Of a DNA stretch of 64,000 nt, positions 5,227-38,697 are shown in pieces. A program made the translations under genes and the position numbers. Source of the stretch: Muribaculaceae bacterium. GTDB taxonomy: Bacteria > Bacteroidota > Bacteroidia > Bacteroidales > Muribaculaceae. How positions within the stretch are numbered: the first letter of the stretch is position 1; each line of letters starts with the position of its first letter. The stretch covers positions 62,001 through 126,000 of the forward strand of contig JAFZKD010000111.1 in NCBI GenBank assembly GCA_017553785.1. Direction: 5' to 3'. Under the pieces are notes generated by a model. The model saw nothing but the letters and a program-made list of their open reading frames with translations, had not been told where the DNA came from and made no database searches.

Positions 5227-5649
5227 ATGATATACATGAATATGAAAAAGATTTTATTTCTTATGACTGCTGTTGTGGCAGTATTATTAATCAGTTGCAA
5301 TCACACAAACGAATACCAGGCCAAGGGTGAGGCATTGGCCCGTCAGTTGGATGAGGCATGCCAGGCACAGGATATGGAAAAAGCGATTTCCATCGACGAG
5401 CAAATCCGTGCCCAGGAAAAAGAGATTGCCGCTACCGGTGATTCGGTGGCTGTCGCATCCTATCGTGAGGCATTGAAAGAGACCCGTGAGCGCAACGCTC
5501 CGTTTGTTGCCTCGGCAAAGCTGGAGAAAGGCAAATCAAAAGATGATATCGTGAAGGAGGCCGTTGGCGACGTTATGGAAGGTGATGTGAACATCAATTC
5601 GCTGACCGAGTCGATAGACGCGATGTTGGAGAAAGAAAAAGATAAGTAA
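5227..5649 (+). CDS. Small lipoprotein, helical
   Basis: 140 residues if started at ATG 5227; ATG 5236 and 5242 are in frame, and 5242 (MKKILFLM) gives the most typical signal peptide. The lipobox is LLISC, followed by NHTNEYQAKGEAL. The mature part is charged and helix-rich (ARQLDEACQAQDMEKAISID, MLEKEKDK at the end), a likely coiled coil. No known domain is recognised. Confidence 0.7.
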   Translation: MIYMNMKKILFLMTAVVAVLLISCNHTNEYQAKGEALARQLDEACQAQDMEKAISIDEQIRAQEKEIAATGDSVAVASYREALKETRERNAPFVASAKLEKGKSKDDIVKEAVGDVMEGDVNINSLTESIDAMLEKEKDK

Positions 5650-5672
5650 GTATTGAGTGTTAAGGCTTGGTT

Positions 5673-6635
5673 ATGTGCTGTTTGAGGATTTGTAAAGGAC
5701 ACCTCACGTGTCGCGTTGTGATGAGTCTCGCCTGTTGCGTGATCATGGCATCGTGCGGCACAGGAATTGAGGTGACTGAGCATGTCTCGGACAAGGATGT
5801 CCAAAAAGTCATTAACCAAGATAATAATCACCAAAAATTGGTGACACTCGACCCTTATGTTGACTCTGTCCCCTCGTGGAGGACAGGCAAGCGTTTTTGG
5901 GTCGCTGATGATCAGGTGAAACTGCTTTTTGTCCATTCCCAGGACTATAACTTGGACACCGTGCGTTTGGCAGGTCGAATAATAGAGTATGCCGGCTATG
6001 ATATCGGTGATATCTATGACAACCGCAACACGTTGAATCTGAAGTTTTCAGATTCCCAAACAGGGCTGACCTACAGATACCGCTCGGGCAAGACCCTGTC
6101 GGAGTTCAACCCGTTGTTCTCCATTCCCATGTTGATTGACATGGATCTGGTTCATCATGTCGCCCGTCAAATCGAGGGAAAAGACTACTACATCCGCACT
6201 CCCATCTGGTTTAACAGCCAAACCGAGAAGATGATGGACGGTCGCCACTTTATCCAGGTGCATATCGATAGCATATTGCCGGGCAACGCCGTCATGCCGC
6301 TGAGGGTTCTGTTCACTACTGCCGATACCCATGAACACGCTATGGTGTGGATGAGTGACAACGCCTCGACCATGCACGGCAGGGATTTTGATGCGATGTT
6401 TGTCGCTAATGATCCTCGTCAGTCATACCCTGACATTTCGGACGCTAATTGGGACCGCATCACCCGTCAACAGATTATTGAGGGCATGACCAAGACAGAA
6501 TGTCGGCTTGCGTTGGGAAACCCTAAACGCATCAATGAGAACCCAAACCAGTCGGGAATGAAAGAATACTGGTATTATGAAGGCGGTTCATATCTTTATT
6601 TTGCAGATGGCATCTTGCAACAATTCAGGCGATAG
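5673..6635 (+). CDS. Secreted lipoprotein with C-terminal BamE/SmpA-like segment
   Basis: 320 residues from ATG 5673 (a TTG at 5667 is also in frame). I prefer 5673 over the later ATG at 5721 because it supplies the basic n-region (RICKGHLTCR) before the hydrophobic core and the lipobox IMASC. The C-terminus (ITRQQIIEGMTKTECRLALG, then NPKRINENPN and EYWYYEGG) has the helix-turn pattern of BamE/SmpA-type domains. The larger N-terminal part is not recognised. It ends 2 nt before the MBL hydrolase gene. Confidence 0.7.
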   Translation: MCCLRICKGHLTCRVVMSLACCVIMASCGTGIEVTEHVSDKDVQKVINQDNNHQKLVTLDPYVDSVPSWRTGKRFWVADDQVKLLFVHSQDYNLDTVRLAGRIIEYAGYDIGDIYDNRNTLNLKFSDSQTGLTYRYRSGKTLSEFNPLFSIPMLIDMDLVHHVARQIEGKDYYIRTPIWFNSQTEKMMDGRHFIQVHIDSILPGNAVMPLRVLFTTADTHEHAMVWMSDNASTMHGRDFDAMFVANDPRQSYPDISDANWDRITRQQIIEGMTKTECRLALGNPKRINENPNQSGMKEYWYYEGGSYLYFADGILQQFRR

Positions 6636-6637
6636 AG

Positions 6638-7405
6638 ATGTTAACGACATTGGAGATAGAATTTCTTGGTACTGGCACATCGACTGGTGTTCCCCAGCTT
6701 CGATGCAATTGCCCTGTATGCTTGAGCCCTGATCCCCGCGACAAACGGTTGCGCACCTCGGCTATCGTGCGATATCAAGGGGTTCGCCTGCTGATTGATT
6801 GCGGTCCTGATTTCCGCACTCAAATGTTGCGGGCCAGTGATGACAATCTTGACGCGGTGTTGTTGACACACATCCATTATGACCATGTCGCGGGCCTTGA
6901 TGACCTGCGCACCTATTGTTTTGAGAAGCCATTCCCATTATACGCACGCCCCGATGTGCTGGACAACCTGCACAAGAGAATACCTTATTGTTTCTCGGAT
7001 AACCCTTATCCTGGGGTCGCTAAGTTCGAGGAACATGTTATTGGCGAAGAACCGTTTTTGGTCGATGGCGTTCGCGTCGAGCCAATTTCGGTGATGCACT
7101 ATAAATTAGCCATATGTGGTTTCCGTATCGGCCCGTTGGCCTATATCACCGATGCCAAGACCATTTCGCCAGAAGTGCTGGAAGGTCTCAAGGGTGTTCC
7201 ACTATTGGTGATTAATTCGCTGCGTGTAGGTCAACATTTGTCGCATATGTGTCTTGACGAGACACTGGAAGCGGTCAGCCGTGTGAAACCAGGCCATGCT
7301 TATCTCATCCACATGAGTGACCGCATGGGCCTGCATGCGGAGTCTCCCAAGTTGTTGCCTGAAGGTGTTGAACTGGCCTATGACGGTCTTATTGTAAGAG
7401 TATAA
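6638..7405 (+). CDS. MBL-fold metallohydrolase (PhnP-like)
   Basis: 255 residues. The metallo-beta-lactamase motif is HIHYDH near residue 87, with supporting ligands further on (MHYKLAI, ITDAKTIS, HMSDRMGLHA). The start (FLGTGTSTGVPQLRCNCPVC) carries the paired cysteines typical of the PhnP/RNase Z-like branch, which hydrolyses cyclic or phosphodiester substrates. No phn genes are nearby, so the substrate is open. It lies between a lipoprotein gene (2 nt) and the umuD-like gene (4 nt). Confidence 0.88.
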   Translation: MLTTLEIEFLGTGTSTGVPQLRCNCPVCLSPDPRDKRLRTSAIVRYQGVRLLIDCGPDFRTQMLRASDDNLDAVLLTHIHYDHVAGLDDLRTYCFEKPFPLYARPDVLDNLHKRIPYCFSDNPYPGVAKFEEHVIGEEPFLVDGVRVEPISVMHYKLAICGFRIGPLAYITDAKTISPEVLEGLKGVPLLVINSLRVGQHLSHMCLDETLEAVSRVKPGHAYLIHMSDRMGLHAESPKLLPEGVELAYDGLIVRV

Positions 7406-7409
7406 CACA

Positions 7410-7838
7410 ATGGACGAAGTAAAAATCTCACAGATTGAGCAGAATGAGACCATGTCGGGCCTTCAGTTCTTTGAAGGACGGGTTCAGGCTGGATTTCCCA
7501 GTCCGGCCCAAGGCGAGTATGCCGACAGTATTGATTTGAACCGTGCCCTGATCACTAATCCGGCGGCGACATTCTGTGCCCGCGTGATTGGCAATTCCAT
7601 GACAGATGCCGGCATCAACGAGGGCGATTTGCTGATTATCGACCGTTCCCTCACGCCACATGACGGCTGTATCGCCGTTTGCTTCCTTGACGGGGATTTT
7701 ACTGTCAAGCGGTTGAGTGTGAAGGAAGACGGCATTTATTTGACTCCGGCGAACGCTGAGTTTCCCGAGATACAAGTTAAGGAAGAGAGCACTTTCCAGA
7801 TTTGGGGCGTGGTGTCCCATATCATCAAACGGGTGTAG
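7410..7838 (+). CDS. umuD: UmuD-like S24 self-cleaving protease, orphan
   Basis: 142 residues, the size of UmuD. The self-cleavage site is Ala27-Gly28 (VQAGFPSP), and the Ser/Lys dyad is Ser63 (GNSMTDAG) and Lys100 (FTVKRL). The Ser-Lys spacing of 37 equals that of E. coli UmuD (60/97). In the SOS response, RecA-DNA filaments trigger cleavage and UmuD' joins the UmuC polymerase. No umuC or other Y-family polymerase gene is seen in this window, and no DNA-binding domain is present, so it is not LexA. Confidence 0.9.
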   Translation: MDEVKISQIEQNETMSGLQFFEGRVQAGFPSPAQGEYADSIDLNRALITNPAATFCARVIGNSMTDAGINEGDLLIIDRSLTPHDGCIAVCFLDGDFTVKRLSVKEDGIYLTPANAEFPEIQVKEESTFQIWGVVSHIIKRV

Positions 7839-20530: not shown

Positions 20531-21121
20531 CTATTTGATGCCCAGGATGCGATGGGTTTGAAGGGAAAGGCGCCATTGCGGATGCTCCATGACGGCTTGA
20601 ACGGTCACTTGGAGATTGTGTTTGCGTTTTTCAGGGTCTTCGGTCCAGCAGGGCTGCAGGTAACGGTGGGTGGCAGTGATGTTGTCGTATTGGGCCAGAT
20701 CCTGGCCTAAATATACCACTTTAAGCTCATCGCAGCTGGTGAGGACTACCGGGGTGTCACCGCTATTGCCGATGTCTGTTTTGGGCGACAAGGTCACCCA
20801 GTCAATGCCCTGGGGCAGGGGACAGGTGCCGTTGGTCTCGATGGCGATGCGCTTACCCGTCATAGCCTTGAGACCAGCAACGAAATCTTCGTCTATCCAC
20901 AGCGAAGGTTCGCCGCCCGTGAGCACGATGAGGGGCGCTTTGGGGTAGTGCATCACCTGCTCGACAATCTCGGGCAGCGACATCATCGTGCCCTCATCGT
21001 GGCGGGTGTCGCAGAAGTCACAACGCAGGTTGCAACCGCTCAGCCTGATGAACACGCTGGCGGTACCTGTGTTGTAACCCTCGCCCTGCAACGAGTGGAA
21101 GATTTCGTTAACTTTCCACAT
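20531..21121 (-). CDS. queE: 7-carboxy-7-deazaguanine synthase (radical SAM)
   Basis: 196 residues, a short QueE. It converts 6-carboxytetrahydropterin to 7-carboxy-7-deazaguanine. The cluster motif is CNLRCDFCDT (CxxxCxxC), preceded by FHSLQGEGYNTGTASVFIRL, and the SAM-binding GGEPSL segment follows. It lies 38 nt after queD, forming a two-gene unit for the early steps of preQ0 synthesis. Confidence 0.94.
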   Translation of the reverse strand: MWKVNEIFHSLQGEGYNTGTASVFIRLSGCNLRCDFCDTRHDEGTMMSLPEIVEQVMHYPKAPLIVLTGGEPSLWIDEDFVAGLKAMTGKRIAIETNGTCPLPQGIDWVTLSPKTDIGNSGDTPVVLTSCDELKVVYLGQDLAQYDNITATHRYLQPCWTEDPEKRKHNLQVTVQAVMEHPQWRLSLQTHRILGIK

Positions 21122-23715: not shown

Positions 23716-25365
<1,650 letters not shown>

Positions 25366-26040: not shown

Positions 26041-26721
26041 ATGGAACTGATTATCGGAAGAGACGGCGCGACCGCCAAACTGAAAGTGGTCGATGGCACG
26101 CAGGTGAAACTGTATGGTGAGGCGGCGAGTGTCCCTGGTGACGTTAGTCGTCAACATTGTCAACTGACGATTGTGGACGAGAACACGTTTGTGATCCGCA
26201 ACATCAAGGCCGCTAATGTGACATGGGTAAACGGTATTGAGGTTCAGTCCAAGAGAATCTCCAAGGAAGATAAAGTGCAGCTAGGTCAAAGCCGCTATCT
26301 GCTGCCTTTGGAAGAGATTCTTGAAGAGATCAAACCCAATATTGTTGATATCGCTCCATTGAAGGAGGTCTGGGAGGCCTATAACACGAGTACGCTGGCC
26401 ATCAGAAAACGTCAGCAAACCAATAACCTATTGTCAAGGATTCCGATTTTCTTGACTATGCTGGGAGGTGTGCTGATCGCGTTAAGCGAGAACATTCGTC
26501 CTTACTCTATCACCTTCACGGTGATCGCGTTGCTGATCATGGCTTACGGTTTCTATCGTCAAGCTACAGACCGGGCCATTGACAAGCAGGAACAGCTCAA
26601 AAAACAGTTCCAACGTGACTACGTTTGTCCCAAGTGCGGACGCTTCATGGGCTTCGTCGATTATGACCTATTACACCAAAATAGTCACTGTCCAGGCTGC
26701 AAGGCCAAATACAAAAAATAG
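26041..26721 (+). CDS. FHA-domain membrane protein with C-terminal zinc ribbon
   Basis: 226 residues. Residues 1-90 are an FHA-type phospho-threonine-binding domain (IIGRDG, DVSRQHCQLTI, TWVNGIEVQSKRI, LGQSRYLL). Two hydrophobic segments follow at about 133-151 and 156-173, and the C-terminus has a two-Cys-pair zinc ribbon (CPKCG at 196, CPGC at 217). With two helices both ends face the same side, presumably the cytoplasm. It probably docks a phosphorylated partner of the downstream kinase at the membrane. It is co-transcribed with the LytTR gene. Confidence 0.85.
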   Translation: MELIIGRDGATAKLKVVDGTQVKLYGEAASVPGDVSRQHCQLTIVDENTFVIRNIKAANVTWVNGIEVQSKRISKEDKVQLGQSRYLLPLEEILEEIKPNIVDIAPLKEVWEAYNTSTLAIRKRQQTNNLLSRIPIFLTMLGGVLIALSENIRPYSITFTVIALLIMAYGFYRQATDRAIDKQEQLKKQFQRDYVCPKCGRFMGFVDYDLLHQNSHCPGCKAKYKK

Positions 26722-26767
26722 TTTCATACATTAATCCCACCATTTCGTCCAATATGCTTTAAATTAT

Positions 26768-26799
26768 TTGGCTGTCGGGATTACCGTTTTTTAATTTTG
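26768..26799 (+). promoter_or_regulatory. Promoter of the caspase-kinase-FGE operon
   Basis: TTG at 26768-26770, 21-nt spacer, TAATTTTG at 26792-26799 followed by CA. Leader of about 35 nt to ATG 26838. The in-frame TTG at 26802 would lie at the start site and is rejected as the start. Confidence 0.65.
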
Positions 26800-26837
26800 C
26801 ATTGTCAAAATTATTAACCGCACAAAATTTTAAGATT

Positions 26838-28088
26838 ATGGTAAACGAAGAAACAATCTACATGGGCAATACCCAATATGGGAATAATAACGGAGACGTT
26901 ATTAAGAAAGTAGCATCGATGGCTTGGAAGCCCGTCGCCATTGGAGGATTCACTGGAATCCTGCTGGGCTCAGGCGCGCTGCTGACCCAACACGTATTTG
27001 TCTCACGGCAGCCTGCCGTCAGCAACGATGAGGTACAACCTAAACAGGCTCAAGAACCCGAGATGATTCAGGAACCGGTTGATGACAACACCTTGAAGGT
27101 TGTCACCATCACCGATGACATGTCGTTTGAACAGGCATTTGTCGAGGCTCGCTCCCAGGTGGGTCCTGGCGGCGTCTTTTACTGGCGTGGTGTCATCTTC
27201 AGCACCTATACTGCCGATGAGTGGGATTCCATGACCGACGAGCAGCATGAGCATTATGCCATGATGGTGCGCCCCGAGGTTGATGCCAACCAAGTTCAGC
27301 CCGAAGATCTCGCTTCGTCGACACAGCATCCTGTTGAACCCGCCGATGCCGTTCAGGAAGTGAGTCCTGCCGAAGATTTTGCCGTTGCTGAGGCAACTCA
27401 AGAAGAGGTTCAGGCCCAGGATAACGTGGATGCCGACGAAGTTCTCGCCGATGTCCCCGTTCATGAGATGAACGAGGATTTCATCCTGGCCGATATCCGT
27501 GAGGTTTCAGGTGATGATGTTGCTGTGGCCGAGTCTCCCGTGGCCGATGAAGATGTAGTCATTGCTGAGCAGGCCGACGTGATTGAGGATATCGCCATGA
27601 TTGATGATATCGAGGCCGCTGAAAGTGCCGCAGCTGCCGCCTCTGCCGCTGATGTCGCTATCGCCGAATCAGATGATAGCTACATGATTGACGAGGTGTT
27701 TGGTTTGGAACCGAATGAAGATGTCGCCATGGCTGCATCAAAGGGCGCTCCCGAAAAAGTCCAGAACGACAGTTTTGAGAAGTTCCTGTTCGAGGACAGT
27801 GAGGTGCGCATCGTAGGTTACGGCGAGTTTGACGGCCATGTGGTTCGAGGTCTCGATCTTGATGGTGATAACATGGTTGACATCGCTGTGATTGATGTAG
27901 ATGACTCGGGCGATCTTTCAAGAGATGACCTTGTTGTGGAGGAGGGTTCCGGAAACATGTCGACCTATGGTGACCTTCATGACTTTGCCATGGACTTGAA
28001 TCATGATGACATGAACGACAACACGCCGAATCCTGATGTTGCCGAGAACATGCCCGATTACATGGATGACGCGATAGCCCAATTGTAA
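26838..28088 (+). CDS. Acidic single-pass membrane protein with EF-hand-like loop
   Basis: 416 residues from ATG 26838. A single membrane segment lies at about residues 31-52 (PVAIGGFTGILLGSGALL). The rest is very acidic and Ala/Val-rich, with repeats such as DVAVAESPVADEDVVIAEQA. Two features stand out: a short motif GPGGVFYWRGVIFSTYTADE with EWDSMTDEQ, and, near residue 360, Ca-binding-like loops (DLDGDNMVDIAV and DVDDSGDLSRDD, the second a good EF-hand loop). No family is recognised. It begins the operon with the caspase 25 nt downstream. A calcium-responsive or scaffold role is a guess. Confidence 0.75.
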   Translation: MVNEETIYMGNTQYGNNNGDVIKKVASMAWKPVAIGGFTGILLGSGALLTQHVFVSRQPAVSNDEVQPKQAQEPEMIQEPVDDNTLKVVTITDDMSFEQAFVEARSQVGPGGVFYWRGVIFSTYTADEWDSMTDEQHEHYAMMVRPEVDANQVQPEDLASSTQHPVEPADAVQEVSPAEDFAVAEATQEEVQAQDNVDADEVLADVPVHEMNEDFILADIREVSGDDVAVAESPVADEDVVIAEQADVIEDIAMIDDIEAAESAAAAASAADVAIAESDDSYMIDEVFGLEPNEDVAMAASKGAPEKVQNDSFEKFLFEDSEVRIVGYGEFDGHVVRGLDLDGDNMVDIAVIDVDDSGDLSRDDLVVEEGSGNMSTYGDLHDFAMDLNHDDMNDNTPNPDVAENMPDYMDDAIAQL

Positions 28089-28113
28089 AATCCGGTTTTA
28101 ATCTATTGGAACC

Positions 28114-28902
28114 ATGCGGTCGATTATCTGCAGTCTGCTTTTATTCATGGTCCTCGCGGCAGTGCCTCAGGATGCGATCTCCCACAACTATGTGTTGTGT
28201 GTGGGGCTGGATACCTATCCCAAGAAGGTGGACCGTTATCTTGTCAAGCCATTGCGCGTTAGCGCCAATGATGCCAAGGTCATGAAGAAAGTGTTTGCCG
28301 CCAATGGTTTCAGAACATCGATTCTCACCGATAGCGCCGCTACACTTGACGCTGTGTTGAGGGCTATGAAGTACCGTTTCTTCACCGCCAAGAGCGATGA
28401 TATGGTGGTATTTTACTTCAGTGGCCATGGAACAGAGGACGGACTGCTCTGTTATGACCATGTATTGGAGAACGATGCGATTGTGAGTGTGTTGAAGCAG
28501 TGCAAGGCAAAGACCAAGATGATCATCGTCGATGCCTGCTATTCAGGTATCATGCGTTGTGACACTGTTTGGCAAAAAGCGTTTACCGATGAGGATGTGA
28601 TTTTCTTCCTCTCCTCGCGCAACGAGGAAACATCCCTAGAGACAGGATACAGCAACAGTTTGTTCACCATGTATCTAGAGAGAGGATTGAGGGGTGGCGC
28701 CGACGCTAACAAGGATAGCGACATCACGCCTAAGGAACTGTTTGATTTCGTTCATGATGGCGTCATGAATGACCGCCTGTTCAAGGGTCATCAGCACCCT
28801 GTCATGTGGGGCCGGTTCAACGGCGATCGGCCAATCATCAACTGGCAAAAAAAGAATAACAAGACAAATAATAAGAATAATCATGATACCACAGACAATT
28901 AA
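28114..28902 (+). CDS. Secreted caspase-like protease (peptidase C14, metacaspase-type)
   Basis: 262 residues. A signal peptide (IICSLLLFMVLAAVPQDAIS) precedes a p20-like caspase domain: YVLCVGLDTYPK, ANDAKVMKKVFAANGF, the catalytic His105 in YFSGHGTEDG and Cys142 in IIVDACYSG. Both dyad residues are present, so it is likely active, cutting after Arg/Lys if metacaspase-like, or Asp. The signal peptide would put it in the periplasm, unlike most known bacterial caspases. The C-terminus is Asn/Lys-rich. The next gene starts inside its 3' end (20-nt overlap). Confidence 0.9.
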   Translation: MRSIICSLLLFMVLAAVPQDAISHNYVLCVGLDTYPKKVDRYLVKPLRVSANDAKVMKKVFAANGFRTSILTDSAATLDAVLRAMKYRFFTAKSDDMVVFYFSGHGTEDGLLCYDHVLENDAIVSVLKQCKAKTKMIIVDACYSGIMRCDTVWQKAFTDEDVIFFLSSRNEETSLETGYSNSLFTMYLERGLRGGADANKDSDITPKELFDFVHDGVMNDRLFKGHQHPVMWGRFNGDRPIINWQKKNNKTNNKNNHDTTDN

Positions 28903-29413
28903 CATCAAGTGTCCAAGTTGCGGCGTGATACTGAGCGTGACCAATTCCAAGAATGAGGATGAGAAGCGCTTCGCTTGCCCCAAGTGCGGCAAGCGTCTTG
29001 TCGTTCCATTCTATAGACTCAAACATGAAGATGGCGAGACCCAGTTAGATGGCAAAAGCGGAAGCCAGGCCACCCAAATGTGCGGTGATGAGATCCAACA
29101 GTCCTGCTATCTGGAGTGCAAGGGCCAGAAGTATGAGCTCTCGATTGGCGGCAACATTATTGGCCGCAAGGCAGACACCTCGGCCGCTGACGTTCAAATC
29201 GAGACAGTTGACATGTTCATGAGCCGTGAACACGCTGTGGTTAATGTCCGCCGCCTTCCCAATGGCGGACTCAAGGTTGATGTCACCAACCACAAGAACA
29301 AGAATTCGACCAAAATTAATGGAATATTGCTTCAAGATGGTGATGCTATCGTGCTGCATGATGGAGACACGGTAGAACTGGGTAAAACCAAACTAACTTT
29401 TCACACCAATTAA
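28883..29413 (+). CDS. Zinc-ribbon plus FHA-domain protein
   Basis: 176 residues from ATG 28883; the longer open frame that begins at 28769 lies within the caspase gene. An N-terminal MJ0042-like zinc ribbon (IKCPSCGVIL, ACPKCGKRLV) is followed by an FHA domain (IGGNIIGRKA, FMSREHAVVNV, NKNSTKINGILLQ, DTVELGKTKLTF). It is soluble and cytoplasmic. The domain order is the mirror of the membrane FHA protein at 26.0 kb (FHA first, ribbon last). It likely reads phospho-threonine marks set by the kinase. Confidence 0.88.
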   Translation: MIPQTINIKCPSCGVILSVTNSKNEDEKRFACPKCGKRLVVPFYRLKHEDGETQLDGKSGSQATQMCGDEIQQSCYLECKGQKYELSIGGNIIGRKADTSAADVQIETVDMFMSREHAVVNVRRLPNGGLKVDVTNHKNKNSTKINGILLQDGDAIVLHDGDTVELGKTKLTFHTN

Positions 29414-29425
29414 TTTCGCATCGTA

Positions 29426-30709
29426 ATGAGAATTAAGTTATATCCGCCGCTGGCCATCCATGAACAGGGTAACCGAGATAATCAGGAAGATTATATCTAT
29501 CCTGTATTAGGTGACGCCACATCCGATGACAAGTTGTTCATCGTTTGTGATGGCATGGGAGGTCATGAACATGGCGAGGTTGCCAGCCAGACGTTCGCGA
29601 AGTCTCTGGCAGAATATTTTAACACCCATGCTTCGAGTGATGTCGTCTTGCCTGACAAGTTAATTGCCGACGCGCTATCATACGCTTACCATAATCTGGA
29701 TGCCGCCGACAGTGGCAGTTACAAGAAGATGGGAACAACGCTCACCCTCCTGTATTTCCACCGTGGGGGTGTAACGGCAGCACACATCGGCGACAGCCGA
29801 ATTTATCATTTGAGGCCTGGCAAACGGCTGCTGTATGTGAGCCGTGACCACTCGTTGGTGTTTGACTTATATCAGAGTGGAGAGATCACCTACGGAGAAA
29901 TGAGGACTTCGCAGCAGAAGAATGTCATCACCCGCGCGGTACAGCCGGGCGAGGACAACCGCGTGAAACCCGATATCATCCACATCACTGACGTGAGACC
30001 TGGTGACTACTTCTACATGTGCAGTGACGGCATGCTCGAGCAAATGGATGACGATGATATCTTTGGGTTGCTCTCGGGCCGTGGCAGTGATGAGAAGAAA
30101 ATGAAAAAACTCATCGCCGCCACTGCAGGAAACCAAGACAACCACAGCGCATATATCATTCATGTCGAAGATGTCAAGACTGAAGAGTGCGACGCCGACA
30201 TCACCGGCAACGAGGAGACGACGGCCAAATTCAATGTGTTGAACATGAAGCCCCTTGGCGACGTTGCAGCCAACCGTCCTGACGAGGATGATGACTTGAC
30301 AGTTACCGCGGCATCAGCCCCCGCATCGGCAAAGCGGCATACCCGCAAGAAAAAAACGTTGACCCCGTTGTGGTGGGCACTCTTGATCGCTGCCATTGTG
30401 GCAGTTGCCGCCTGGTTGGCACTTTATGGTTGGGGAGGTCGTCATGATAAGGCCAATGACGAGCCCGCGTATGAGACCGTTTCGGTTCACAACGATGAGC
30501 CGATTAAACCGGTCATTCATCACTCGACAACGCCCCAACGCAATCGTGCCAGTTCAAAGGGTAAAGTGGCTGAGGAAGCCGCTGCGTCTCGTAATGCCCA
30601 GGATGGCGACGCAGCATCTACCGGCAAGGATTCCAAGTCTCGTCATGAAGTCACGTCGGGCGAATCCGACAATTCGCGTGATAATAACGCCAATGAGGGC
30701 GATAATTAA
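29426..30709 (+). CDS. PP2C-type Ser/Thr phosphatase with membrane segment
   Basis: 427 residues. Residues 1-245 are a PP2C/Stp1 domain with metal-binding residues in NRDNQEDYIY, FIVCDGMGGHEHGE, AAHIGDSRIYHL, SRDHSLVFDL and YFYMCSDGMLEQMDD. One membrane helix is at about 312-333 (LWWALLIAAIVAVAAWLALY), and a charged, low-complexity tail follows, which would face the periplasm. It should reverse the phosphorylation made by the kinase 29 nt downstream; the pair is as in PrpC/PrkC or Stp/PknB loci. Confidence 0.92.
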   Translation: MRIKLYPPLAIHEQGNRDNQEDYIYPVLGDATSDDKLFIVCDGMGGHEHGEVASQTFAKSLAEYFNTHASSDVVLPDKLIADALSYAYHNLDAADSGSYKKMGTTLTLLYFHRGGVTAAHIGDSRIYHLRPGKRLLYVSRDHSLVFDLYQSGEITYGEMRTSQQKNVITRAVQPGEDNRVKPDIIHITDVRPGDYFYMCSDGMLEQMDDDDIFGLLSGRGSDEKKMKKLIAATAGNQDNHSAYIIHVEDVKTEECDADITGNEETTAKFNVLNMKPLGDVAANRPDEDDDLTVTAASAPASAKRHTRKKKTLTPLWWALLIAAIVAVAAWLALYGWGGRHDKANDEPAYETVSVHNDEPIKPVIHHSTTPQRNRASSKGKVAEEAAASRNAQDGDAASTGKDSKSRHEVTSGESDNSRDNNANEGDN

Positions 30710-30738
30710 GGATTACCAAACACTAAATACGCTAGAAT

Positions 30739-32250
30739 ATGGCTAAACAAGATAATATCAACATGGAGTCAATGCTCAAAGTGGGCACTGTATTGCATGG
30801 TACTTATCGCATTGACAGCTATTTGTCAAGTGGTGGATTTGGTAACACCTATGTGGCGACTCATATCAACTTCAATGAAAAATATGCCATCAAGGAATTT
30901 TTCATGAAAGGCGTGAATGAGCGTGACGGTAATACTGCTGTGAGCGTTAGTAATAACGAGAAAGTCACTGAATTCACCGAGCAGTTAGAGAAGTTCAAGA
31001 AAGAGGCTCGCCGGTTGCGCAAACTCAATAATGACCACATCGTGCGAGTGTATGACCTGTTTGATGAGAACGGGACCGCATACTATGTCATGGATTACAT
31101 CAACGGCGAGAACCTGAAAGAAAGGCTCAAACGCACCGATAACCCGATTTCGGAGTTTGAGGCCACCGACATTCTGGAGCAGGTGCTCGACGCGTTGCAG
31201 GAAGTACATTCCCAAGGGATTTGGCACCTTGACTTGAAACCTGCAAACGTGATGGTTGACAAAAACGGCACCGTCAAGCTCATCGACTTTGGCGCCAGTA
31301 AGCAGTTCAACAGCAAGACCGGTGGTGCTTTGTCCACGTCGTCGGTGACATATACCAATGGCTTTGCGCCCATCGAGCAGATGGAGAAGAGCTATGAGAA
31401 ACTGGGTCCCTGGACTGATTTCTATGCGTTAGGCGCCACGATTTACAATGTGCTCGCCAATCAGCGTCCTCCCATGCCCAGCGACATCAACGATGACCAC
31501 ACTCCAGACAAACATTTGTCCCTGCCATTACCCTTTGGTGTGAGCGACAAAATGCGCGACCTCTTGTTGTGGATGATGAAAACCAACCGCAAGGAACGCC
31601 CCGAGTCGGTAAAAGATATCACCGATTACTTGAAGGCGTCTGGAATGGGAACCCATCGTGATACTGACACTACCGTGCTCACCCAGCCTGATGTTCAGGC
31701 TTTGCAAGACACCCAGAACACGTTTGACGCTGATGAGGAAGCAGATGACTCCGAGAACAGCGCCGAGAACGCCAAGAAAACCAAAAAGGCGATAATAATT
31801 GCCGCATGCGTCGGTCTGTTGCTCGCTGTGGGTTTCTATTATTTCTTTAACGGCGGTTTCAGTAGCAACGATGGTTCACAAGCAGCTGAGGATTCGCTGG
31901 TGGTGAAGAATGTGACCGATTCGCTGTTGACCATTCCTCTGGGAGAATGCCATTATACTGGACCTGTGAACGGCAAAGGCTTGCCCGCAGGCAAAGGTAC
32001 CGCAGTATTCACTGCCGATGGCCAGCGGCTTGAAGGAACATTCGATAACGGAAATGTCGATGGCGACAGCATCCAGATCATTTATCCTAACGGCAATATC
32101 TTTTTTGGCACATTCAAGGACAACAAATTGTACAAGGGACGTTTCACCTGGAAAGATGACGGCTCCTATTTTGAAGGCTTCTTTCTTGATGGCCAGCCTG
32201 ACATGAAGAAGGGCGCCATGTATGACAAGAAGGGAAAACTATTGGATTAA
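30739..32250 (+). CDS. Ser/Thr protein kinase with membrane segment and MORN repeats
   Basis: 503 residues. Kinase domain at 19-285: Gly loop SSGGFGNTYVA, Lys in YAIKEFF, catalytic loop HLDLKPANVMVD (about residue 163; Leu replaces the Arg of HRD, a non-RD kinase), Mg-binding IDFGAS, and TNGFAPIEQ in place of GTPxYMAPE. A membrane helix is at about 350-370 (IIIAACVGLLLAVGFYYFF). The periplasmic part (397-495) is made of MORN-type repeats (LEGTFDNGNVDGD, FFGTFKDNKLYKGRF, YFEGFFLDGQPD). The kinase domain is cytoplasmic and the MORN part could sense something in the envelope. Confidence 0.92.
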   Translation: MAKQDNINMESMLKVGTVLHGTYRIDSYLSSGGFGNTYVATHINFNEKYAIKEFFMKGVNERDGNTAVSVSNNEKVTEFTEQLEKFKKEARRLRKLNNDHIVRVYDLFDENGTAYYVMDYINGENLKERLKRTDNPISEFEATDILEQVLDALQEVHSQGIWHLDLKPANVMVDKNGTVKLIDFGASKQFNSKTGGALSTSSVTYTNGFAPIEQMEKSYEKLGPWTDFYALGATIYNVLANQRPPMPSDINDDHTPDKHLSLPLPFGVSDKMRDLLLWMMKTNRKERPESVKDITDYLKASGMGTHRDTDTTVLTQPDVQALQDTQNTFDADEEADDSENSAENAKKTKKAIIIAACVGLLLAVGFYYFFNGGFSSNDGSQAAEDSLVVKNVTDSLLTIPLGECHYTGPVNGKGLPAGKGTAVFTADGQRLEGTFDNGNVDGDSIQIIYPNGNIFFGTFKDNKLYKGRFTWKDDGSYFEGFFLDGQPDMKKGAMYDKKGKLLD

Positions 32251-32299
32251 CTTCCTGATTGAATACTGATTAAACCATTTTTCTTCAAGTGAAGATCAA

Positions 32300-33451
32300 A
32301 TGAAGAGTAAGAATTACATATTGGCTTTTGCGGTACTGGTGCTATTATCGGTACTGCCGGTATTTGGTCAGGTTGGTCAGGTCTATAGGCCACAGACGTC
32401 AAAGACCCAGAAGACGACTGTCAAGAAGACCAATAAAACGACGACCACGACCAAAAAGCGGACGCCAAACAGTAGTCATTCTTCTTCTTCTTCAAGCGGT
32501 AAACACAATTACAGCAGCGGCTCATCGGGTTCATCATCGGCGGTTTTAGAGGTGACGTTCAGCTGTAATGTTGAAGATGCCGATTTGTATGTTGATAATT
32601 CTTATTTTGGCTCGGCCTGTGATTCCTATAATCTCAAGACGGGTACTCATAATGTGCAATTAGTCGCTAGTGGCTATGAGGATTACAGTTCGAATATCAC
32701 GGTATCGAACGCTAACCGTTCATTCAATTTCAAGATGACGAAGATCTCTCCTCAGGCTATTGAGAACCTGTTGGAAGACATGGTGTTTGTCCATGGCGGT
32801 TCGTTCAAGATGGGGTCGCCTGACGCTGACGGTGAATTTGATGAGAAGCCGGCCCATGAGGTGGTGCTCTCTTCATATTATATTTCGAAATATGAGGTGA
32901 CTCAAGAACTGTGGCAGGAAGTGATGGGTAATAATCCGAGTATGAATACGGGTGAGAATCTGCCCGTCGAGTCCGTTTCGTGGGATGACTGCCAGTTATT
33001 CATCAGCAAACTGAATGAAATCACGGGTGTGAAATTCCGTTTGCCGACCGAGGCCGAGTGGGAGTATGCCGCTCGTGGCGGAGACGTGAGCAAAGGCTAT
33101 CGGTATGCTGGTAGCGACAGCATTGATGAGGTGGCTTGGTATTACAATTTTGATACTGCTTCGCATGAAGTTGGAGGAAAACAGCCCAACGAATTGGGAA
33201 TATATGATATGTCAGGAAATGTGTTGGAATGGTGCTCGGACTGGCATGGACCGTACAAAGCCGGATTGCAGAAGAATCCTACTGGTCCCAAATCGGGCGA
33301 CTATCGTGTGACCCGCGGCGGTTTTTGGGAAAGTGAATCCAATCACTGCTCGGTGACTTACCGGCACCCTGTATCACCTGATGACGTCAGTCAATCCATT
33401 GGGCTGCGACTTGTTGCAAAATCGCTGAAAGCTAAACAAAAAACGAGATGA
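32300..33451 (+). CDS. Secreted PEGA plus FGE-sulfatase-fold protein (first copy)
   Basis: 383 residues. Signal peptide (IAFAVLVLLSVLPVFG-like, cleaved before QVGQVYRP), a Lys/Thr/Ser-rich linker (30-75), a PEGA-type beta domain (80-145), then an FGE-sulfatase fold (155-375) with MVFVHGGSFKMGSPD, EVTQELWQEVMG, FRLPTEAEWEYAARGG, NELGIYDMSGNVLEWCSDW and IGLRLVAK. The active-site segment RGGFWESESNHC keeps only the second cysteine, so formylglycine formation is unlikely. It probably acts as a wall- or ligand-binding module. It lies 49 nt after the kinase and overlaps the next gene by 4 nt. Confidence 0.9.
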   Translation: MKSKNYILAFAVLVLLSVLPVFGQVGQVYRPQTSKTQKTTVKKTNKTTTTTKKRTPNSSHSSSSSSGKHNYSSGSSGSSSAVLEVTFSCNVEDADLYVDNSYFGSACDSYNLKTGTHNVQLVASGYEDYSSNITVSNANRSFNFKMTKISPQAIENLLEDMVFVHGGSFKMGSPDADGEFDEKPAHEVVLSSYYISKYEVTQELWQEVMGNNPSMNTGENLPVESVSWDDCQLFISKLNEITGVKFRLPTEAEWEYAARGGDVSKGYRYAGSDSIDEVAWYYNFDTASHEVGGKQPNELGIYDMSGNVLEWCSDWHGPYKAGLQKNPTGPKSGDYRVTRGGFWESESNHCSVTYRHPVSPDDVSQSIGLRLVAKSLKAKQKTR

Positions 33452-34728
33452 AAAGATATATCATAGCATTCATGGCAATGATCTTGCTATTGCCAGTCTC
33501 GCCTGTTTTTGGTCAGGTGGGTGCGGTGTTTAAACCCCGTACCAACAAAACTGAGAAACAGACGGCTAAGCCTGAGAAACAAACACCAAAAGCCACACCG
33601 TCCAGGACCGCCCGTCCGCGTCCTGCGCGTCGTAGCAACCAGCCTCCCAAAGTGCGGCGTTCCACCTCTCATGTCCCGAAGAACCATAATGAGTCTCCCG
33701 AGATTGCTGTGAGCTTTGGCTGCAATGTGAGTGATGCTGTTATCACGATTGATGATGACGAACCTGGAGATATCGATGATACCTATATGCTCAAGGAGGA
33801 CATCTACAAGGTGCTTGTCGAGGCCGAGGGATATGAGCCATTAGACACCACTATAGAAGTCACCGAGGAGGAGGATTATTTTTATTTTGAATTGTCGGAA
33901 TATACAGGCGAGGATGCTGTGGCGCCTTACTTGCCACCAGAGTCCACCCAACCCGAGGTTCCAGTCCTGATTGATGACCCCGCTAATGCCCAAAAGGCTT
34001 TGAATGATACGATTACCGTTAAGGGAGTCACCTTTATCATGGTGTATGTGCCTGGCGGTACCTATACCAGGTACAAGGTTCCCGATAACCTGGGCTCTAT
34101 CGTTGACGGCGACGTGAGCGGTGTGCCGCCTGCCCACCGGGTCACTGTCTCAAACTTTTATATCGGCATGCATGAGGTGACATGGGAACTGTGGTACGCA
34201 GTAATGGCCGATAGTGTTGTCGAGGATGGCGCCCGATATCCGATCGATGACGTGAATTGGGCCGACTGCCATGTGTTTATCGATAAGTTGAACAAGTTGA
34301 CAGGAAAGTCTTTCAGGCTTCCTACTGATGCTGAATGGGAGTTCGCTGCCCGTGGCGGTAACAAATCACAGGGCTATGTGTTTTCCGGCAGCAATAATAT
34401 TGACGATGTGGCATGGTATAGCGGAAACAGTGATGGCGAATACCACGAAGTGGGTACAAAGGCCCCCAACGAATTGGGAATATATGATATGTCAGGCAGT
34501 GTGAGTGAGTGGTGCGCCGACTGGTGGAACTGGCCCGACGCCGACGAGCAGACCCCGCCGCTGGTAAATCCTAAAGGACCTCAGGAGGAGCAGATGAGCC
34601 AGCGCGGCAGTGGCCAGGGACGCATTGTCAGGGACGGCGGTTATTTCCAGGATGCCATTGAGTGTTGCCTGTTCAGGTTGTATCGCAGTGACCCCAAGAA
34701 GGGATGGGGATTCCGTCTTGCGATGTAA
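33448..34728 (+). CDS. Secreted PEGA plus FGE-sulfatase-fold protein (second copy)
   Basis: 426 residues, started by ATGA overlap with the previous gene. It shares the same plan: signal peptide ending in SPVFGQVGAVF, a basic Pro/Arg/Lys linker (PSRTARPRPARRSNQPPK), PEGA-like domain (residues 87-150), an acidic spacer, then an FGE fold (VTFIMVYVPGGTYTRY, EVTWELWYAVM, FRLPTDAEWEFAARGG, NELGIYDMSGSVSEWCADW). The active-site segment RDGGYFQDAIECCLFRLYRS lacks the first catalytic Cys. The tandem copies diverge most in loops that would line the ligand face. Confidence 0.9.
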   Translation: MKRYIIAFMAMILLLPVSPVFGQVGAVFKPRTNKTEKQTAKPEKQTPKATPSRTARPRPARRSNQPPKVRRSTSHVPKNHNESPEIAVSFGCNVSDAVITIDDDEPGDIDDTYMLKEDIYKVLVEAEGYEPLDTTIEVTEEEDYFYFELSEYTGEDAVAPYLPPESTQPEVPVLIDDPANAQKALNDTITVKGVTFIMVYVPGGTYTRYKVPDNLGSIVDGDVSGVPPAHRVTVSNFYIGMHEVTWELWYAVMADSVVEDGARYPIDDVNWADCHVFIDKLNKLTGKSFRLPTDAEWEFAARGGNKSQGYVFSGSNNIDDVAWYSGNSDGEYHEVGTKAPNELGIYDMSGSVSEWCADWWNWPDADEQTPPLVNPKGPQEEQMSQRGSGQGRIVRDGGYFQDAIECCLFRLYRSDPKKGWGFRLAM

Positions 34729-34750: not shown

Positions 34751-34831
34751 AGCATTAGCTGTAAAGCTAACAGAGTGTCTGAGACTCTGGAAAGATAATA
34801 AGCATGTCCTAAAGTAATTAGGACGTGCTTA
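34751..34831. terminator. Hairpin group between convergent FGE operon and nhaC
   Basis: Three stem-loops: TTAGCT/AGCTAA (34755-34770), CAGAGT/ACTCTG (34771-34789), and a 14-bp stem 34799-34812 with 34818-34831 (one G-T pair). The last overlaps the nhaC stop codon and is followed on the minus strand by a T-rich stretch, so it is probably the nhaC terminator. Confidence 0.65.
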
Positions 34832-36275
34832 CTGTATCTGGACGTTGGCGTTTGATTTTCCAGCCGATGGCAGCAACGAGGATTGTCATTAACGGACTGA
34901 TGAGGTTAAAGAAACAATAGGGGAGATAGGTGAGGGTAGGGACCCCAAGCACCGTGGCCTGTGTCATTCCGCATGTGTTCCAGGGCACGAGTACCGATGT
35001 CACTGTAGCGGCGTCCTCGCAGGTGCGGCTTAACAACCTGGCCTCGTATCCTTCGGTCTTGAAGACGTTTCGGAATATATCGGCAGTGAGAACGATGCTG
35101 ATGAATTGGTCGCCTGTCGTGAGGTTCAAAAAAATGCCAGTACCCACTGTCGAAGAAACCAGACTCAACCTGGTGCGCACGAAACTGATGATGACGCGCG
35201 TAATGCTCTCAATCATGCCGCTAGCCACCATAGCCGCTCCATAACACATGGCGCAGATGATGAGCCAGATGGTGTTGAGCATGCCCGCCATGCCACCTGT
35301 TGAAACCAGGTCGTTCAAGGCATCGAAACCGGTCTGGACGGCTGTTGCACCGTAGAAGGTGATCGCCAGCCCCTTAGCCAGCGCAGCTGGGGTGCTTAAC
35401 GAGGCATCGGCTGCGATTTGGGTGAGGATGTGGGGCTGGAGAATGAGGGCTGTGATACCTGCCATAATTGATGAGGCAAACAACACTATCAGCGACGGTA
35501 CTTTCTTGGCGATCAGAATGCCAGTGATGATGGGTACCAGCAGCGTCCATGCCGATATGTTGAATGTCGCTGACAAGCCTTGAGTGTATTGCTCGACATG
35601 CAACGCACCATCATTGCCATGCCCAAAACCGGCAAGCAGAAAGATGATAAGCGTGATGAGAATCGAAGGCGTGGTGGTGATGACCATGTAACGGATATGC
35701 TCAAAGATGTCCACCCCAACAGATGATGAAGCCAGAATCGTCGTGTCGCTGAGCGGTGACATCTTGTCACCGAAATAGGCACCTGAGATAATGGCTCCCG
35801 CCGTCCACGCTTCGCTCACTCCCAGCGCATGACCGATGCCCAGGAGGGCTACACCGATGGTTGCCACTGTTGTCCATGAACTGCCTGACAAAAGAGAAAC
35901 CAAGGCGCAGATGACGCATGCGCTGACCAAGAAGAACTTGGGTGACAGGATTTGTACACCATAATAGATGAGCGTAGGCACAATGCCGCTAATCATCCAT
36001 GACCCTGATAGCATGCCCACCGTGAGCAGAATGAGCAGTGTCACCGACACATCTCCCAATGTCTTGCACATCTGCCGTTCGAAAGTCTTCCAGGGCACAT
36101 GATAAACCGTCATAGAAATAGTCACGCACACCGCCAAACCGATTAACAATGCGATTTGGCTGCCTCCGCTCAGGGAATCGCTGCCAAAAAGGGATATGAC
36201 AATAATCAGCAGGCCAATCAATACCACAATGGGGATCGCTGCAACAAGAGGATGAGGTGTTTTGTGTTCAGTCAT
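34818..36275 (-). CDS. nhaC: NhaC-family Na+/H+ antiporter
   Basis: 485 residues with about 11-12 membrane helices. Family segments: LLSGSSWTTVATIGVALLGI, ISGAYFGDKMSPLSDTTILA (the conserved acidic ion-binding region), and VLVPWNTCGMTQATVLGVPT near the end. It exchanges Na+ (or other substrates such as malate/lactate in relatives) for H+. Start ATG 36275 is preferred because the promoter box lies between it and the upstream TTG at 36314. Confidence 0.92.
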   Translation of the reverse strand: MTEHKTPHPLVAAIPIVVLIGLLIIVISLFGSDSLSGGSQIALLIGLAVCVTISMTVYHVPWKTFERQMCKTLGDVSVTLLILLTVGMLSGSWMISGIVPTLIYYGVQILSPKFFLVSACVICALVSLLSGSSWTTVATIGVALLGIGHALGVSEAWTAGAIISGAYFGDKMSPLSDTTILASSSVGVDIFEHIRYMVITTTPSILITLIIFLLAGFGHGNDGALHVEQYTQGLSATFNISAWTLLVPIITGILIAKKVPSLIVLFASSIMAGITALILQPHILTQIAADASLSTPAALAKGLAITFYGATAVQTGFDALNDLVSTGGMAGMLNTIWLIICAMCYGAAMVASGMIESITRVIISFVRTRLSLVSSTVGTGIFLNLTTGDQFISIVLTADIFRNVFKTEGYEARLLSRTCEDAATVTSVLVPWNTCGMTQATVLGVPTLTYLPYCFFNLISPLMTILVAAIGWKIKRQRPDTVSTS

Positions 36276-36301
36276 ATTAACGGCTTGTGGGATTTGAAGT
36301 G

Positions 36302-36309
36302 CAAACTTA
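36302..36309 (-). promoter_or_regulatory. -7 box (TAAGTTTG) of nhaC
   Basis: Complement of CAAACTTA at 36302-36309, followed by CAC. Leader of about 20-25 nt to ATG 36275. Confidence 0.55.
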
Positions 36310-36420
36310 GGCAAAAAAACTAGAAATCCGTTGTTTTTAAGTAAAAACTCTTGGCAAAATGGCCTTTTTCGCCGGTTTTTTCATTGGTTGGCGGTTTGTT
36401 TCAAAATATGGCGATTTTGT

Positions 36421-37782: not shown

Positions 37783-38697
37783 ATGAACAAGAAACTACTT
37801 TTTAGACTCGTCGCCCTCGTGACGGCCATGATGTGCGCCCTGGGCATGCAGGCTGCCGAGGCCTATGCCAATTACACGCCGTCGAACACGACGCTGACAT
37901 TCTATTACGACAACCTGCGCAGTTCCCGCACCGGTACGACCTATAACCTGAACACGGGCTCTAACTCTCCCGATTGGAAAACTGACGGCACCAATGCCAG
38001 CGTGACAAGGGTTGTCTTTAACCCGTCGTTTGCCGAAGCCCGCCCGACGACCACCTATAGTTGGTTTGCCAACATGGAGAATCTTACCGAAATCACGGGC
38101 ATCTCCTATTTAAATACCAGCGAGGTGACCCATATGGGTTTTATGTTCTATGGCTGTGATAAATTGACGAGCGTTGATGTATGCCACTTCAATACGGCCA
38201 AGGTGACCAGCATGTCCGCCATGTTCCGCGACTGCAGCAGCTTGACAAGCCTTGACTTGGGCGGTTTCAATCCGTCCCAAGTTACTCACATAAATTACAT
38301 GTTCTTTGGCTGCAGCAATCTGCATACTATCTATGCAGGCAATGATTGGAGCACGGCTGCCGTGACGAACTCTACAGATATGTTCAAATACTGCACCAGT
38401 CTGGTGGGCGGCTTGGGTACGACCTATGACGAGAACCATATTGATGCTGAATACGCCCACATCGACGGTGGCACGAGCAACCCCGGTTACTTCAGCAAGA
38501 AGCCCAGCTTCCTGCGTGGCGACGTGAACGGCGACAACAGCGTGAACATCGCTGACGTGACCGCGCTGATCAATTACCTGTTGACCGACGATCCCACGGG
38601 CATCAACCTCGATGCTGCCAACTGCAACCAGGACGGTGCCGTGAACATCGCCGATGTGACGACACTCATCAACTTCCTGCTCACGGACCAATGGTAG
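37783..38697 (+). CDS. Secreted BspA-type (DUF285) repeat protein with C-terminal dockerins
   Basis: 304 residues. Signal peptide (LVALVTAMMCALGMQAAEA), then about four BspA/DUF285-type repeats with the pattern FNTxxVTxMxxMFxxCxxLT (HFNTAKVTSMSAMFRDCSSL, GGFNPSQVTHINYMFFGCSN). The C-terminus has two dockerin-like EF-hands (GDVNGDNSVNIADVTALINY and CNQDGAVNIADVTTLINF) ending LTDQW. BspA-like proteins are surface proteins that bind host or microbial ligands. The stop codon is the first unit of a 7-bp tandem array. Confidence 0.85.
   Translation: MNKKLLFRLVALVTAMMCALGMQAAEAYANYTPSNTTLTFYYDNLRSSRTGTTYNLNTGSNSPDWKTDGTNASVTRVVFNPSFAEARPTTTYSWFANMENLTEITGISYLNTSEVTHMGFMFYGCDKLTSVDVCHFNTAKVTSMSAMFRDCSSLTSLDLGGFNPSQVTHINYMFFGCSNLHTIYAGNDWSTAAVTNSTDMFKYCTSLVGGLGTTYDENHIDAEYAHIDGGTSNPGYFSKKPSFLRGDVNGDNSVNIADVTALINYLLTDDPTGINLDAANCNQDGAVNIADVTTLINFLLTDQW

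Follow-up and report, generated by a model that had tools for sequence, protein, structure and literature searches.

A 64,000-nucleotide (nt) stretch of contig JAFZKD010000111.1 from a Muribaculaceae bacterium (assembly GCA_017553785.1; 2.54 Mb, 80% complete), here referred to as the window, carries nine plus-strand genes between groEL (23734-25365) and the convergent gene of a transporter that we take to be of the NhaC type (34818-36314). In order, these encode a LytTR protein, an FHA protein with two membrane helices and a zinc ribbon (here referred to as FHA-TM), an acidic membrane protein, a caspase, a zinc ribbon-FHA adaptor, a PP2C phosphatase, a Ser/Thr kinase, and two PEGA-FGE proteins (FGE = formylglycine-generating enzyme). 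The locus is somewhat likely to be an envelope-signaling module, in which a phospho-threonine switch would control an exported caspase and an envelope regulon run by LytTR. The evidence read from the sequence comprises the gene content, its recurrence in related genomes, the enrichment of a threonine tag in four of the proteins, one gene fusion, and a repeat-promoter architecture. Opinion is evenly balanced on the fuller proposal, namely, that this is an undescribed Bacteroidota system of inside-out phosphorylation control, with a shared phospho-threonine tag, an acidic relay, a caspase switched outside the membrane, and an FHA-gated LytTR envelope regulon. Open-access literature searches returned no counterpart system among the matches listed.

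Seven of the nine genes had been described as one operon in an earlier note on this DNA. All seven were found in the order claimed, with gaps of 25, -20, 12, 29, 49, and -4 nt, and Pfam bore out the domain calls (caspase 6e-20, FHA, PP2C_2, Pkinase 3e-43, and both PEGA-FGE proteins). The start needed correction: position 26768, where the run had been said to begin (26768..34728), lies inside a Bacteroidetes-type promoter (26767-26799), and the ATG of the first gene is at 26838. Moreover, the system is larger than seven genes and includes the upstream pair of LytTR and FHA-TM genes, which ends 116 nt ahead of the acidic-protein gene.

Recurrence of the module genes

Gene content and order at the groEL-NhaC site are repeated in five further loci (L002, L003, L004, L039, and L040), the last two with a single FGE gene instead of two, and groEL and NhaC are only 75 nt apart in one congener; the locus is therefore more than a chance grouping. 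Named records with the same locus are the Prevotellaceae metagenome-assembled genomes RUG412, RUG362, and RUG330, presumably of rumen origin. In a sample of 61 related genomes, a caspase more than 50% identical was present in seven (source genome included), and the FHA-TM gene in these and three more (G004, G030, and G034, where the caspase matches are weaker), ten in all. Two of the seven (G017 and G007) carry the module at another site, enlarged with extra kinase and FGE genes (L041 and L042); in these loci and in L043 of G034, several kinases and FGE proteins stand in tandem. The NhaC regions of eight congeners without a close caspase were also compared. One is the empty 75-nt site (L174 in G002), two have one other gene between groEL and NhaC (L171 and L173), and in five groEL is not beside NhaC within the fetched stretch. 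Together with the expanded loci elsewhere, this pattern is consistent with gain or loss of the module as a single piece.

Beyond close relatives, a profile of the acidic protein, built from loci first found via the caspase, matches 10 of 295 genomes of the order and 5 of 395 in a sample of the phylum (source genome counted in each), so the module is sparse. Among the 16 loci with a match to this profile, two of which (the window and L050) were known beforehand and several of which lie on short contigs, a zinc ribbon-FHA gene was found at most two genes away in 15, a kinase in 14, an FHA-TM gene in 12, a PP2C gene in 11, and a caspase in 8. Across Bacteroidales, other orders of the class, and Runella, gene order is shuffled and content is largely constant, e.g., acidic, FHA, kinase, kinase, PP2C, caspase, FHA-TM in L095; caspase, PP2C, FHA-TM, acidic, FHA, kinase in L101; and FHA-TM, acidic, FHA, PP2C, caspase, kinase in L134, from a different order of the class. 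Thus, the co-occurrence that the earlier note had proposed to look for does exist, with order kept at the groEL-NhaC site and shuffled elsewhere. On a plasmid of Runella rosea HYN0085 (Cytophagales), five module genes follow one another (FHA-TM, acidic protein, FHA, PP2C, and caspase), as confirmed by profiles, and a gene annotated as VWA-domain stands immediately ahead of the module FHA gene (L218, 1044-1457). This is the one neighborhood examined among 33 plasmid records with a caspase match. The profiles used for annotation were iterated on the same loci, so that L094-L103 were not annotated blind; L111-L135 and L218 were.

In a variant branch (L046, L047, L048, and L103), the membrane protein is a different, very acidic one, accompanied by an FHA gene and by a caspase whose N-terminus is signal-like, and L045 has a caspase and an acidic membrane protein with only a zinc ribbon in place of the FHA gene. 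None of these five loci matches the acidic-domain profile, and LytTR, FHA-TM, or PP2C occurs in some only.

Caspases as such are common, with matches at E<=1e-5 in at least 129 of the 295 genomes of the order (at most about nine candidates scored per genome). Every one of the seven loci whose caspase scores 200 bits or more has FHA genes nearby, and five have PP2C, vs. neither in any of 20 lower-scoring loci, where one kinase, one FGE, and one weak LytTR match were seen; these controls were hand-picked, one per genome, and excluded three loci at 194-198 bits. One of those three (L049) showed no module gene by blastp.

An acidic threonine tag in four module proteins

Four module proteins carry an acidic threonine tag, roughly DDEETIIEG, in tails that are predicted to lie in the cytoplasm. 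The N-terminal tail of the acidic protein is otherwise unconserved, and its tag reads NEETIYMG in the window and DDEETRFEG, EEDKTLLEG, or DDSTRLVE elsewhere. For counting, a threonine was scored as a tag when the residue at +2 is hydrophobic and the four preceding positions include at least two acidic residues, one of these within the two nearest positions. The tag was found in 17 of 22 N-terminal tails of acidic proteins (2.0 expected when each tail is shuffled), 12 of 23 linkers of zinc ribbon-FHA proteins (1.3 expected), 24 of 30 kinase juxtamembrane segments (3.65 expected), and 11 of 17 PP2C tails (2.3 expected), the PP2C tail of the window being without a strict tag. No weight is given to P values for these counts because the rows are related. 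A further form, TDVY/TDVF, was seen by eye in both kinases of L132 and L134 and in the acidic-protein tail of L132.

The enrichment is specific to threonine and to the predicted cytoplasmic side. Over the 92 tail regions, 78 of 384 threonines (about 20%) fit the tag, vs. 1.1-4.5% for 13 other residues tested in place of threonine and 100 of 4650 threonines (about 2%) in 236 neighboring open reading frames (ORFs) outside the module. In the acidic protein, the kinase, and PP2C, 66 of 310 threonines fit on the cytoplasmic side and 37 of 932 (about 4%) past the helix, while the catalytic domains of kinase and PP2C have 19 of 936. The tag is likely the ligand of the FHA domains; in the adaptor (29027..29053), it is positioned like the phospho-site of GarA and OdhI. 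The working idea of the earlier note, a phospho-threonine switch, is strengthened by this enrichment, while the triggers named there (envelope damage, a phage, or a competitor) are hypothetical.

The LytTR arm and its putative regulon

The LytTR gene, a candidate transcription arm of the module, adjoins the FHA-TM gene in 14 annotated loci, including the window, where they are 6 nt apart; FHA-TM is the predicted partner of LytTR at the membrane. A 9-12-9 direct repeat, TTTCATACA-N12-TTTCGTCCA, ends 15 bp upstream of the promoter of the seven-gene operon. The strict promoter consensus TTTG-N17-23-TAnnTTTG has 11 matches, two of them overlapping, on both strands of the window (1.15 expected by shuffling); no strict match was found upstream of lytTR in the 5 loci checked. 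Searching the 61 genomes for the repeat with two mismatches allowed gave 26 matches in 12 genomes, vs. one for a reversed control pattern. Of the 26, 22 belong to G020 or to one of the seven genomes with the module, and each of these has a promoter at a constant distance, in the strict TTTG form for 18 and as TTGG one base further on for 4. The remaining four carry two mismatches each and lack a promoter. The 22 sites precede the module operon (7), small outer-membrane beta-barrels (8; two confirmed by Pfam, the others by similarity), a lipoprotein of 772-778 amino acids (aa) (4), and a secreted protein of 340-346 aa (3), and the products of these four families look exported or membrane-bound. 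Promoter-linked sites away from the module occur in 4 of 7 module genomes vs. 1 of 30 other congeners (Fisher 0.0025, relatedness ignored). Judged from this architecture, the gene set probably forms a LytTR regulon.

Among its members in the source genome are paralogous small beta-barrels behind an operon-type repeat-promoter (L185 and L186, contigs C48 and C122) and the 772-aa lipoprotein (L184, reversed strand, 5282-7606, contig C109). In the latter, a histidine (D[TS]HG) and a cysteine (NGSC) are kept in all four orthologs. It is possibly a second caspase-fold protease; profile comparison gave this a probability of 1.7%, and no support came from Pfam, NCBIfam, or the PDB.

By analogy, the arm closely resembles the LytTR Regulatory Systems HdrRM and BrsRM, in which LytTR is paired with a membrane inhibitor and direct repeats with a 12-bp spacer stand just ahead of a promoter (PMC6193735). 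A receiver-less LytTR gene beside a membrane-protein gene and the repeat spacing are shared with that description. However, the membrane protein of the module bears an FHA domain and a zinc ribbon, and the repeat sits ahead of the neighboring operon and of targets in trans.

The caspase and its predicted export

The caspase belongs to Peptidase C14 (Pfam 72 bits vs. a cut-off of 21; fold match E 1e-12). The catalytic dyad that the earlier note had called intact, His105 and Cys142, is invariant in 14 of 14 aligned sequences. An AlphaFold model (predicted local distance difference test, pLDDT, 86) has GSU0716 (3bij) as its nearest fold, followed by legumain, caspases, and MALT1. Asp53 and Asp140 are also invariant in the 14 sequences and align with aspartates of metacaspases, at what we take to be S1 positions, which suggests specificity for Arg or Lys. 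The metacaspase-type GSU0716 is the nearest solved protein in sequence and fold, with the two aspartates aligned, but the module caspase, whose proteolytic activity is predicted, differs in its signal-like sequence and its recurring neighborhood.

Hydropathy shows an N-terminal signal-like segment in the window caspase, in line with the secretion claimed for it, and the N-termini of 25 caspases from related loci are basic, hydrophobic, and signal-like by eye, some only from an internal start. In one distant genome (L132), a single open frame of 521 aa runs from PP2C through a hydrophobic segment to the caspase, which would place the phosphatase inside and the caspase outside the membrane in a single chain. 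The topology proposed earlier, with kinase, phosphatase, and FHA domains inside and the caspase outside the inner membrane, gains from this fusion and from the position of the tag, which falls on the side predicted to be cytoplasmic.

The acidic protein, kinase, phosphatase, and FGE proteins

Alignment of the acidic protein delimits a conserved domain of about 40-50 aa (27114-27224) with the segment DDMSFxEAFxxARxxVGPGGVFxWxGxxYxTYxxEEW. It has no Pfam match at the cut-off, and PHROGs gave only weak matches, the best (0.012) elsewhere in the chain. This is a new domain family; every other part of the module belongs to a known one. In the model of the 415-aa chain, two small parts are folded (about 87-142 and 323-385) and the remainder is of low confidence, and assignment to a known fold was rejected with no PDB match at E<=0.001, though for a poor model (pLDDT 48). 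An acidic, EF-hand-like membrane protein had been claimed: the acidic membrane part holds, while the EF-hand likeness of the Asp-rich C-terminal part is by eye only, with no EF-hand match in Pfam.

Hydropathy bears out a single membrane helix in PP2C, one in the kinase, and signal-like N-terminal segments in both FGE proteins. The MORN repeats ascribed to the kinase are visible in its sequence but give no significant match to Pfam MORN. Among eight kinases of relatives scanned with Pfam, three have a recognizable domain past the helix (OmpA, DUF3298/PdaC, and Fib_succ_major). FHA-TM, with its two-helix hairpin, is predicted to have both ends in the cytoplasm.

For FGE1, the role of formylglycine-generating enzyme was rejected: in an alignment to 6s07, the first of the two FGE active-site cysteines is replaced, and the Treponema variable protein 2y3c outranks true FGE enzymes as the best PDB match. 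The cysteines of FGE2 were judged by eye only. The variable protein is, we assume, linked to a diversity-generating retroelement (DGR). Diversification of the FGE genes by a DGR was considered. The source genome has two reverse transcriptase matches (C5:112918-113652 and C49:47344-47838), none on the contig of the window (C119); they possibly belong to a group II intron, a retron, or a DGR.

Locus layout and neighboring genes

The features of the locus are listed in Table 1. A PADLOC scan of ten other ORFs of the window gave a single weak viperin-like match (24 bits; 20531-21121, minus strand), perhaps another radical-SAM protein. On the other side of the locus, 37783-38697 encodes a secreted protein with dockerin-like Asp repeats at its end (GDVNGDNSVNIADV), and a protein of L185 has a similar end.

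Table 1. Genes, tags, and regulatory elements of the locus (window coordinates)
Feature	Position	Strand	Support
LytTR DNA-binding protein, stand-alone, 122 aa	25666..26034	+	Pfam LytTR 3e-12
FHA-TM protein (FHA, two-helix hairpin, C-terminal zinc ribbon)	26041..26721	+	Pfam FHA 2e-8; hydrophobic segments 133-148, 156-172
Direct repeat TTTCATACA-N12-TTTCGTCCA, candidate LytTR site	26722..26751	+	First half kept in 8/8 close loci
Bacteroidetes-type promoter TTTG-N21-TAATTTTG, ahead of the seven-gene operon	26767..26799	+	Strict match, 8/8 close loci
Acidic single-pass membrane protein	26838..28088	+	Alignment; glycine-rich hydrophobic segment 26922-26984
Threonine tag NEETIYMG, N-terminal tail of acidic protein	26844..26867	+	
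Caspase (C14), predicted exported	28114..28902	+	Pfam 6e-20
Zinc ribbon-FHA adaptor, cytoplasmic	28883..29413	+	Pfam FHA 7e-10
Threonine tag EDGETQLDG, between zinc ribbon and FHA of adaptor	29027..29053	+	
PP2C phosphatase, one helix following the catalytic domain	29426..30709	+	Pfam PP2C_2 7e-13; helix 30368-30424
Receptor-like Ser/Thr kinase: kinase, helix, MORN-like repeats outside	30739..32250	+	Pfam Pkinase 3e-43; helix 31789-31848
Threonine tag DTDTTVLTQ, kinase juxtamembrane segment	31660..31686	+	
PEGA-FGE-fold protein 1, secreted	32300..33451	+	Pfam FGE 8e-45, PEGA 4e-9; best PDB match 2y3c, 1e-34
PEGA-FGE-fold protein 2, secreted	33448..34728	+	Pfam FGE 3e-29

Proposed mechanism and alternatives

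We infer the trigger and the direction of signaling as follows. Receptor-like kinases with variable outside domains (MORN-like in the window; OmpA, DUF3298/PdaC, FGE, or Fib_succ_major in single relatives) would sense the envelope, assisted by the secreted PEGA-FGE proteins. Once active, a kinase would phosphorylate the tag in its own juxtamembrane segment as well as those in the tails of the acidic protein, PP2C, and the adaptor; FHA proteins would bind the tag and assemble the parts at the inner membrane, and PP2C would reset it. The acidic protein may then relay the state through the membrane to the exported caspase, and the activated caspase would cleave envelope proteins after Arg or Lys. 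On the inside, FHA-TM would retain or free LytTR, which would bind the repeat and activate the operon and the envelope regulon.

Several observations weigh against this reading. The tag rule was set after the sequences had been seen, and the proteins compared are related; no tag is present in 5 of the 22 acidic-protein tails, 11 of the 23 adaptor linkers, 6 of the 30 juxtamembrane segments of kinases, and 6 of the 17 PP2C tails, and 22 of 366 threonines past the helix of the acidic protein fit it as well. In eight of the 16 loci with a match to the acidic-protein profile, several of them on short contigs, the fetched stretch contains no caspase, so the caspase is possibly optional, and no kinase is among the genes listed for the Runella stretch. 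G020, a genome that is 74% complete, has three repeat-promoter sites and no detected module. Lastly, among seven kinase-FGE fusions from related loci, a hydrophobic segment separates the two domains in two and is absent from the other five, so FGE is not always outside; the earlier placement of the FGE modules beyond the inner membrane suits the signal-like FGE proteins of the window but does not hold in general.

The same parts could also work from the outside in, and this is viewed as unlikely, though it is the foremost of the alternatives: an envelope signal would activate the exported caspase, which would cut the ectodomains of the acidic protein or the kinase, with the tag, FHA, and LytTR reporting the cut. 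The acidic-protein and caspase genes are neighbors in many loci, long low-confidence and presumably disordered linkers join the folded parts of the acidic protein, and the caspase-PP2C fusion through a hydrophobic segment in one genome would suit such shedding. However, some loci have the acidic protein and the kinase without a caspase in the stretch, and the sequence names no cleavage site. Rather less probable is an anti-phage or anti-competitor defense, in which the kinase set senses attack and the caspase kills the cell. Patchy distribution with an empty site in one congener, a plasmid copy in Runella that fits a mobile system, and matches of the kinase domain to PADLOC kinases such as mad6 (the strongest, 185 bits) and PD-T4-6 agree with it; for NCBIfam MAD6, the same domain scores 124 bits against a cut-off of 460. 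The caspase is predicted to be exported, however, and the module proteins as a set match no defined system of PADLOC 2023, only separate kinase, caspase, and PP2C models. Ten other ORFs of the window gave one weak PADLOC match, the remaining putative regulon members resemble surface proteins, and viral contigs hold no relative of the acidic protein, by which a phage-borne origin was also rejected. Filing the module as a defense system is not supported. Caspases do occur in described conflict systems, such as vWA-MoxR ternary systems and the membrane-associated two-gene System 4, with FHA and FGE-type domains sporadically present (PMC7159879). A caspase-superfamily peptidase in a regulated multigene system, sometimes near the membrane, is shared with that account. 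By contrast, the nine window proteins have no MoxR, vWA, or STAND domain in Pfam (the Runella stretch lists a VWA gene), the module caspase has a signal-like N-terminus, and kinase, PP2C, and FHA recur together with it.

A regulator of a secretion machine, like the threonine phosphorylation pathway of the type VI secretion system (T6SS) or a controller of the type IX secretion system (T9SS), is very improbable. In the PpkA/PppA/Fha set of that pathway, the same three types of cytoplasmic part are found, namely, a membrane kinase with an outside sensor, a PP2C eraser, and an FHA reader of phospho-threonine. The module likewise has a membrane kinase, PP2C, and FHA, and its FGE domains weakly resemble GldK/GldJ, far under the cut-off. 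The module differs in that a caspase, predicted to be exported, and an acidic transmembrane protein accompany this set, and in that four types of protein bear tags. The T6SS sheath gene VipB was not found in the source genome (80% complete), so membership in that pathway, and T6SS control with it, is not supported; T9SS was not searched for, and neighbor loci were annotated with module profiles only, by which secretion genes would go unrecognized. The likeness may, by analogy, concern the working mode. A tag threonine just N-terminal to the FHA domain is known from GarA and OdhI. The adaptor has its tag N-terminal to FHA in the same way, and FHA-TM matches OdhI weakly (1e-5, far under the cut-off); in the module, by contrast, the tag is common to kinases, phosphatase, and transmembrane protein, and a zinc ribbon stands ahead of FHA.

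Significance

In bacteria, most discussion of caspases concerns effectors of cell death or defense that act in the cytoplasm. Here, a caspase with a signal-like N-terminus is tied to a kinase-phosphatase-FHA switch across the membrane, in both Bacteroidales and Cytophagales, and Runella rosea HYN0085, one of the carriers, is a named strain whose plasmid record is complete. A new domain family and a putative LytTR regulon are thereby defined in a poorly understood group. If the envelope-signaling reading is true, it would mean inside-out control of a protease, a predictable phospho-tag code, and a role for secreted bacterial caspases; the recurring Bacteroidota module points to a new route by which a phosphate signal may be passed outward across the membrane to a protease.

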